Shown: in pieces, positions 26,121 through 35,355 of the stretch
Position numbering within the stretch: position 1 is the stretch's first letter
How the letters are laid out: every line of letters starts with the position of its first letter
Source: SAR86 cluster bacterium AG-313-D11
GTDB taxonomy: Bacteria > Pseudomonadota > Gammaproteobacteria > Magnimaribacterales > D2472
Reading direction: 5' to 3'
Length of the DNA stretch: 64,000 nucleotides
Assembly (NCBI GenBank): GCA_003284215.1
Contig: QBVW01000001.1
Location: 276,127-340,126 of the forward strand
Notes under the pieces: generated by a model
The model's database searches: none
The model's input: only the letters and a program-made list of their open reading frames with translations
Told to the model about the DNA's origin: nothing
Made by a program: the position numbers and the translations under genes

Positions 26121-26426
26121 ATGATTATTACAGCAATAAAAATTATATGCATAATCCTCGCAATAGTACTAATTGTTTTAGTGATATTGCAACAGGGAAA
26201 AGGTTCAGATTTAGGCTCAGCTTTTGGAGGGGGATCTTCAAATTCAATGTTTGGCGCAGTAGGGCCATCCAATTTTCTTGGAAAATTGACTGCATTTATT
26301 GCGGCTCTTTTTTTGATATTAAACCTAGCTCAGGCAGTCTTGTTAAAAAATGCTAACACCGAAGTCTTATTTACTGATGAAGAGATTCAAGAAGCAACAA
26401 AAGTAATAGAGATCCCAGTAGAGTAA
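26121..26426 (+). CDS. secG: Preprotein translocase subunit SecG
   Basis: This 101-residue inner-membrane protein supports the SecYEG protein export channel. It has two hydrophobic helices (about 3-25 and 52-73), joined by a glycine/serine-rich loop with the S-M-F-G motif typical of SecG. It follows tpiA by 2 bases. The gene converges on a tRNA-Leu read from the other strand. Confidence 0.93.
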   Translation: MIITAIKIICIILAIVLIVLVILQQGKGSDLGSAFGGGSSNSMFGAVGPSNFLGKLTAFIAALFLILNLAQAVLLKNANTEVLFTDEEIQEATKVIEIPVE

Positions 26427-34739: not shown

Positions 34740-34769
34740 TTGCTAAATGTCAAATTTAGCAAGATTTTT
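34740..34769 (+). terminator. Terminator of the rpsO-pnp transcript
   Basis: A perfect 9 bp stem, TTGCTAAAT with ATTTAGCAA around a 5-base loop, is followed by GA and TTTTT. It lies 66 bases after the pnp stop. A second AT-only hairpin, ACTTATA/TATAAGT (34694-34710), lies between and may protect the mRNA end. Confidence 0.65.
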
Positions 34770-34781
34770 CATACATTTTTC

Positions 34782-34848
34782 TTGTCCGTCATTTCTTTTT
34801 ATGGTTTTATAGATTAACTAACCAGCAAACCATAGGGGGAAATTATGG
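34782..34848 (+). promoter_or_regulatory. Promoter and structured leader of the first small membrane protein gene
   Basis: TTGTCC (34782-34787) and TTTTAT (34805-34810), 17 bases apart, are a weak promoter candidate. The leader contains TATGGTTT (34800-34807), fully complementary to AAACCATA (34827-34834), just ahead of an AGGGGG Shine-Dalgarno (34834-34839). CCATA (34830-34834) can pair instead with TATGG (34844-34848), which covers the start codon. If transcription starts near 34817, only the second pairing is possible. Confidence 0.3.
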
Positions 34849-35060
34849 ATAATGCATGGAGAATGATAGGTGACTTAGTTAGCAATTTAACTAGCGTCAT
34901 CACTGGATTGTTAGGTCTTGGAGTTGTAGGAGCTTTGCTCTTTGGCGACTTTTTAGGTCTTGATGTAGTTGGAAACATCACTGCTTTAGTTGATAGCTTA
35001 GCTAACGGTGGAGTTGTTGGGCTGCTTGTATTAGCAATCCTAATGAGTCTTCTTAAGTAA
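34845..35060 (+). CDS. Small two-helix membrane protein of unknown function (copy 1)
   Basis: I do not recognise this 71-residue protein. It has a short polar N-terminus with a Trp (1-14), a glycine-rich hydrophobic segment (about 15-39), a linker containing F-G-D, D40-V41 and N44, and a second hydrophobic helix (about 56-70) ending in a single Lys. There is no signal peptidase site or Cys. A very strong AGGGGG Shine-Dalgarno 5 bases before the ATG argues that it is translated well. Its C-terminal half aligns without gaps to the 76-residue protein 64 bases downstream: about 9 of 32 positions are identical, including D-V, N, L, G, L, I and the final L-K. It is probably a paralogue of that gene. 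The pair sits between pnp and tRNA-Met/ychF, which belong to different conserved blocks in Pseudomonas. Confidence 0.75.
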   Translation: MDNAWRMIGDLVSNLTSVITGLLGLGVVGALLFGDFLGLDVVGNITALVDSLANGGVVGLLVLAILMSLLK

Positions 35061-35105
35061 ACACTTAAGTGCATAGTCAAGAAGGGCGCCAGTTCTTCTT
35101 GACTA
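35052..35105 (+). other. Two consecutive hairpins at and after the stop codon of small gene 1
   Basis: CTTAAGT/ACTTAAG (35052-35058 with 35063-35069) encloses 4 bases and includes the stop codon. It is followed by a perfect 11 bp stem, 35074-35084 with 35095-35105 (core AGTCAAGAAG / CTTCTTGACT). Its 10-base loop contains GGCGCC. There is no T-run, so this is not a standard terminator; it may stabilise the mRNA or act in RNA processing. Confidence 0.6.
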
Positions 35106-35124
35106 CTATATTTAAATTTATTAC

Positions 35125-35355
35125 ATGGACTTTGATTTAACTTTTAAGGGAATTAGAAAATTTCTAAAAAAGCTAACAGGCATACTAGTGCCTTTAGTAT
35201 TTGTTTCCCTTTTGCTCGGAATAATTTTTGGGCCAGACACACCATTCATCGGTGATGTTTACAATAATGTTGCAGAGATTATTAAAATGCTGGGTGAAGA
35301 CGGCTTATTGGCATTAATCTCGGTAATTATTATTCTTGCATATCTAAAAAAATAA
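35125..35355 (+). CDS. Small two-helix membrane protein of unknown function (copy 2)
   Basis: This is a 76-residue protein I do not recognise. The basic N-terminus (Lys8, Arg11, Lys12, Lys15, Lys16) precedes a hydrophobic helix (about 19-36). A linker with F35-G36, P-D-T-P and G43-D44-V45 follows, then a second helix (about 60-74) ending in Lys-Lys. By the positive-inside rule both termini should be cytoplasmic. The linker and second helix align with copy 1, two residues longer between F-G and D-V. No Shine-Dalgarno is visible before the ATG, so translation may depend on coupling to copy 1 or on an unmapped start. A perfect 10 bp inverted repeat spans its last codons. Confidence 0.65.
   Translation: MDFDLTFKGIRKFLKKLTGILVPLVFVSLLLGIIFGPDTPFIGDVYNNVAEIIKMLGEDGLLALISVIIILAYLKK

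Follow-up and report, generated by a model that had tools for sequence, protein, structure and literature searches.

An apparently uncatalogued pair of small predicted membrane proteins in SAR86 bacteria, with relatives on phage contigs

Introduction

What are the two short genes that lie one behind the other between pnp and ychF in a SAR86 genome, and what would a bacterium gain from keeping them as a pair? Few uncultured bacterial groups of the surface ocean are as abundant as SAR86, and the genome in question, which is 1.3 Mb in size, was analysed over a stretch of 64,000 nt, referred to below as the window. Both of the short reading frames called in the initial annotation are present in the sequence, and they are designated here P1 (copy 1) and P2 (copy 2) (Table 1). 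A pair this short, kept by most of SAR86, showing signs of very high expression and absent from the family libraries that were searched, is likely to escape notice in annotation. The viral copies described below offer marine virologists a specific gene, as yet uncatalogued, that may serve in lysis or as an auxiliary gene, and they give a handle on how such phages treat the inner membrane of their hosts. The strongest clues beyond a first reading of the locus are a conserved, terminator-like hairpin between the two copies and the existence of phage-encoded relatives.

Table 1. Features of the P1/P2 locus, in coordinates of the window
Feature	Coordinates	Strand	Basis or proposed role
Inverted repeat, then a run of T, downstream of pnp; likely pnp terminator	34740..34762	+	Sequence; role deduced
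P1 promoter-like element, TTGTCC - 17 nt - TTTTAT, preceded by TGG	34782..34810	+	Conservation upstream of P1 in relatives only
AGGGGG ribosome-binding site of P1	34834..34839	+	G-rich site conserved at this place
P1 (copy 1), 71 aa, two-helix membrane protein	34845..35060	+	Putative major, highly expressed subunit
P1-P2 intergenic hairpin, 14-bp stem, 4-nt loop, terminator-like	35074..35105	+	Hairpin in 57/57 SAR86 loci
P2 (copy 2), 76 aa, P1 paralogue	35125..35355	+	Putative minor subunit

Distribution, pairing and genomic surroundings

Within the SAR86 order, homologues of P1 are found in 123 of 151 genomes and those of P2 in 125, a distribution that takes in 21 of the 22 genera and all four families. 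The two occur together in about 123 of the 151 genomes and, in the loci that were read, P2 lies downstream of P1 on the same strand, at a distance of 33-79 nt. The suggestion that the genes might always travel together therefore holds nearly without exception in SAR86, as no genome was found with one copy only, save at contig ends or where a divergent single relative is present; the two surplus P2 genomes are one in which P2 is truncated by a contig end and one with such a divergent relative. Two divergent single family-like proteins, L145 and L146, come from SAR86 genomes that yielded no normal pair. Both P1 and P2 are absent, even by profile search, from the fairly complete genomes G003, G023 and G039, and hence the pair is not essential everywhere, with occasional loss within SAR86 being likely.

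Because the frames are short and match nothing in the libraries, it could be argued that they are chance open reading frames rather than genes. The likelihood of this is close to nil. It had been proposed at the outset that a lack of homologues, a dN/dS near 1 or broken frames would count against the genes; what was found instead, besides the homologues just described, is a median dN/dS of 0.14 for P1 and 0.12 for P2, no stop codons in the listed frames of the homologues, and a ribosome-binding site that is kept over four families. P1 and P2 are real genes, and purifying selection acts on both.

The genomes of families f1 and f2 that were looked at share the gene order pnp - P1 - P2 - ychF, to which f2 adds a further gene; in f4 ychF but not pnp is near the pair, and in f3 neither is. 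The view that the pair marks a special rearrangement junction is not upheld, given that the arrangement is shared within f1 and f2. Since P1 and P2 keep together at sites that differ across families, they are an independent unit, and their site is not a recent rearrangement.

Outside the SAR86 order, a class-wide profile search detected relatives in three families. In one of these, f112, which by its gene content would be SUP05/Thioglobus-like, 27 of 50 genomes have one to three copies, situated between ubiA and dapD in the loci read. The SUP05-like genome of locus L131 (8241-9294) has three tandem family copies, two of them nearly identical. A tandem pair is present in genome G488. Genome G375 has a single copy with a lysine-rich tail; this member (L096/L106) carries a long, histone-H1-like C-terminal tail that is rich in lysine and threonine (183 aa). 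Phylum-wide draws gave marginal matches only outside the class. Among the stretches read for their neighbours, a gene for a Gcw_chp (PF09694) porin was seen beside glnK-amtB or amtB in L222, L221 and L228 (SAR86 f1), in L224 (f4) and in L218 (SUP05-like).

Paralogy of P1 and P2

The initial annotation regarded the two genes as diverged duplicates, on the strength of nine identities over an ungapped stretch of 32 residues. That count is correct, but as evidence of relatedness it is at chance level once the choice of window is taken into account (8.7 for the best window of shuffled sequences; p = 0.54), and a raw score that shuffled hydrophobic proteins can match was rejected as a standalone argument. 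The relationship itself is nonetheless established by profiles, in that the P1 and P2 family profiles align over 72 columns with an E value of 1.8e-15, and single P2 queries find P1 in other genomes, with values of about 1e-12. In a tree that has few columns and a midpoint root only, all SAR86 P1 proteins form one clade (support 95/94) and all P2 proteins another (100/93), and from this separation the duplication is judged, by sequence comparison, to predate the diversification of the SAR86 order. The sequence motifs DxVxxN and a C-terminal L-K hold only approximately. The most conserved positions are the F-G pair, the V that follows this pair, and L-G-x-x-G-[LFVI]-x-G-L.

Predicted structure and library searches

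P1 is predicted to consist of a long helix (residues 2-33), an amphipathic helix (41-53) and a short second helix (57-70), with a mean pLDDT of 83 and no signal peptide seen. Based on this helical membrane fold and the missing signal peptide, the earlier suggestion of a secreted hydrophobic peptide appears unlikely. With so few polar residues in the membrane helices of P1 and P2, a solute pore does not readily suggest itself. As a test for a heterodimer, a fused P1-linker-P2 sequence was modelled; the model was poor (pLDDT 57), and no conclusion about a heterodimer is drawn from it.

The description of the proteins as belonging to no recognized family stands. Searches of Pfam, NCBIfam, PHROGs and PADLOC returned no family match, the best values being weak, partial and far below the cut-offs, and comparison of the P1 model with a PDB library and a viral structure library (Foldseek, VIA-align) returned no structural match. 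The family thus appears to be uncatalogued.

Signals of expression

Several features of the locus suggest that P1 is abundant and P2 less so. The likely pnp terminator lies upstream, and so P1 would begin its own transcript, from the promoter-like element listed in Table 1, which a simple consensus promoter scan did not report. The strong Shine-Dalgarno sequence noted earlier for copy 1 is indeed there. The share of codons ending in C is 0.53 in P1, the highest among the 53 genes of the window, compared with 0.33 in rpsO, a window median of 0.20 and, for EF-Tu of the same genome, 0.33; although P1 is a short gene, its bias recurs over 45 loci, where the share of two-fold codons ending in C is 0.34 for P1 vs 0.17-0.24 for other genes. 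Divergence at four-fold sites, taken over 12 genome pairs of which two are the same genomes twice and with recombination outside the model, is 14.7 % for P1, as against 27.7 % for P2, 27.9 % for pnp and 33.8 % for ychF (Fisher p 2e-5 or less). Across all pairs, which are mostly saturated, the contrast is weaker, with median ratios to pnp of 0.85 (P1) and 1.03 (P2).

The hairpin between P1 and P2 is predicted in every one of 57 distinct loci, with a median z of -5.1. Among the 57 hairpins the 5' arm takes 40 different sequences, and the 8 nt that follow the hairpin have a median T count of 5. That the structure is kept while the sequence changes fits a selected and often terminator-like element, which would lower P2 relative to P1. 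A search against Rfam found a tRNA plus sub-threshold matches only. Two further motifs are conserved in f1 relatives, namely a GTCAAAT ... ATTTG inverted repeat upstream of the P1 promoter-like region (window 34740-34800), a possible regulator site, and CTTAA(C/G) between the P1 stop codon and the hairpin (window 35061-35070). Alternative pairing of ACTTAA, after the P1 stop, with an arm of the hairpin was seen by eye in some loci and set aside as inconsistent.

Viral relatives

P1-type proteins are encoded on at least 67 IMG/VR viral contigs, always as one copy per locus; the survey of their neighbours covered 55 distinct proteins. A search of viral contigs with the P2 profile, done for one pattern, gave no match, and there was no P1-type protein among the named phage genomes of INPHARED. 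Gene 201 of Flavobacterium phage immuto, a candidate by its size and its place beside the capsid genes, proved to be a soluble, unrelated protein. The genes near viral P1 include those for a T4-type major head protein, tail sheath, tail tube, clamp loader and PhoH and, given such hallmark genes, the P1-bearing contigs that were tested are real phages. The family is, in other words, common to host chromosomes and to viral contigs with hallmark genes, as phage auxiliary genes are. In the tree, viral copies fall beside P1, some of them beside SUP05-like proteins, and apart from P2; at least three changes of virus label are needed, and the midpoint root does not fix the direction of transfer.

Outer-membrane barrels, as called by simple sequence criteria, lie within three genes of P1 in 8 of 30 distinct viral loci vs 2.7 expected, a number reached in none of 5000 random placements. 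Beta-barrel neighbours are found at 19 of the 55 distinct viral proteins and belong to several groups, i.e. Gcw_chp, Porin_4 and short Bacteroidota-like barrels. Judged by homology, 16 of 54 viral loci have a Gcw_chp barrel nearby, and in 8 a short Bacteroidota-like barrel lies directly upstream of P1. One viral copy precedes a Porin_4 gene and one a gene for a PstS-like binding protein. In one phage group, accounting for 5 of the 55 distinct proteins, a T4-E-like GH24 lysozyme that matches Pfam Phage_lysozyme and an endolysin PHROG is encoded co-directionally 4-67 nt downstream. The remaining 31 of the 55 have neither a barrel nor an endolysin neighbour within the stretch looked at, and the cellular loci read have no endolysin neighbour of P1/P2. 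Loci L288, L290, L293 and L295 carry a separate viral subfamily, one member of which adjoins a PstS-like gene. In a phage group represented by the viral loci L158, L178, L189, L196-L199 and L204, P1, a Gcw_chp porin and flavin/NAD reductase-like, IscU-like and MetK-like genes share one region.

Possible function and alternative explanations

The family is probably of importance both for the cell envelope and during infection, in a role that is predicted here. Our preferred reading, offered tentatively and at somewhat less than an even chance, is that P1 and P2 make up a P1-rich inner-membrane assembly for envelope or uptake functions, of which P1 is re-supplied by phages. Family members would be inner-membrane hairpin proteins of ~75 aa, in which an amphipathic stretch at the N-terminus continues into helix 1 and is followed by an F-G turn, then by an amphipathic helix and, past a glycine hinge, by a short helix 2. 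P1 would be produced abundantly under a promoter of its own while the hairpin lowers P2 output, such that the membrane would hold a P1-rich hetero-oligomer with P2 as a minor or regulatory part. Less firmly, the assembly might support the inner-membrane side of the envelope and nutrient traffic, and phages might re-supply P1 as an auxiliary gene, along with binding proteins or porins, so that the envelope stays functional once host gene expression stops.

Nutrient uptake is favoured because the Gcw_chp porin gene of SAR86 hosts, in four of the loci read, adjoins glnK-amtB (f1) or amtB (f4), which suggests that this porin may be an outer-membrane channel tied to ammonium uptake, and because viral modules of glnK, amtB and the porin gene ompL have already been published (PMC8115048). 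Against it count the cellular neighbours of the pair (pnp, ychF, tRNA, ubiA and dapD), which are uninformative on uptake, and the viral proteins that have neither type of neighbour. A still bolder formulation, to which we give only slightly lower odds, is that the family is a previously unseen class of envelope protein common to abundant marine bacteria and their phages, in which the stoichiometry of a P1/P2 membrane assembly is tuned and the assembly is of such value during infection that a single P1-type copy has been kept by several phage lineages, coupled to different barrels, to a PstS-like protein or to an endolysin.

The endolysin just downstream of P1 in one phage group is better accounted for if the viral members are class II-type holins, and viral holin ancestry is the main rival to the envelope and uptake reading. 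The cellular pair would then be a domesticated holin-like set, which either modulates membrane permeability or lets host P1 co-assemble with phage P1 and so spoil the timing of lysis. With about 75 aa and two predicted transmembrane helices, the family has the size (under about 100 aa) and topology of class II holins such as the S21 pinholin of phage 21 (about 70 aa, two helices), and on the tree host P1 and the viral copies group together, apart from P2. Still, no sequence similarity to the pinholin was seen, the endolysin neighbour is confined to that one group while porin neighbours are commoner, and the cellular members, unlike holins, are conserved and apparently constitutive, their slow evolution and presumed constant high expression being ill-suited to a lethal protein. 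On balance, a holin origin is unlikely. Nearly the same standing, again on the unlikely side, is given to a purely structural oligomer that shapes membranes as Mic10 of MICOS does, with no link to uptake, and that phages carry since it is abundant and turning over. Mic10, a eukaryotic protein, is a glycine-rich two-helix hairpin of similar size; hosts and viruses alike conserve glycines within helix 1 and where helix 2 begins, and a hairpin with an amphipathic helix is what the P1 model predicts, but there is no significant sequence similarity to Mic10 and nothing comparable in the PDB library. A more improbable proposal is that the family blocks other phages at the inner membrane, by superinfection exclusion in the case of the phage copies and by constitutive exclusion in that of the host copies, with phage barrels masking receptors. 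Phage-encoded porins that alter receptors are known, viral P1 has beta-barrel neighbours, and the small size, two helices and inner-membrane placing of these proteins in T4-type phages bring to mind the superinfection immunity protein Imm of T4. Similarity to Imm is, however, lacking (probability 0.7 %), no PADLOC model applies, a dN/dS of about 0.13 bears no signature of an arms race, and the retention of the pair across the order is housekeeping-like.

Comparison with known systems

Among cellular proteins, SecG has two helices, as P1 and P2 do, but P1/P2 score 7.6 bits against the SecG equivalog TIGR00810, whose cut-off is 30.85 bits, and a separate SecG-like gene of this genome lies at 26121-26426 of the window. 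TatA joins its membrane and amphipathic helices through an FG hinge that resembles the F-G turn of the family; a profile comparison with TatA covered 12 columns at a probability of 1.2 % and was not significant. The envelope and uptake reading has its closest parallel in the host-derived auxiliary genes of marine phages, as exemplified by viral glnK-amtB-ompL (PMC8115048). In both cases a cellular gene of membrane or uptake type is carried by T4-like and other phages and, as with other such auxiliary genes, viral P1 is found near porin, PhoH or PstS-like genes. Unlike in the published modules, the viral Gcw_chp porins adjoin P1 without glnK or amtB, neither of which occurs in the stretches read around these loci. 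That marine phages carry envelope and uptake genes derived from their hosts was known already; what is new here is that P1 has viral relatives.
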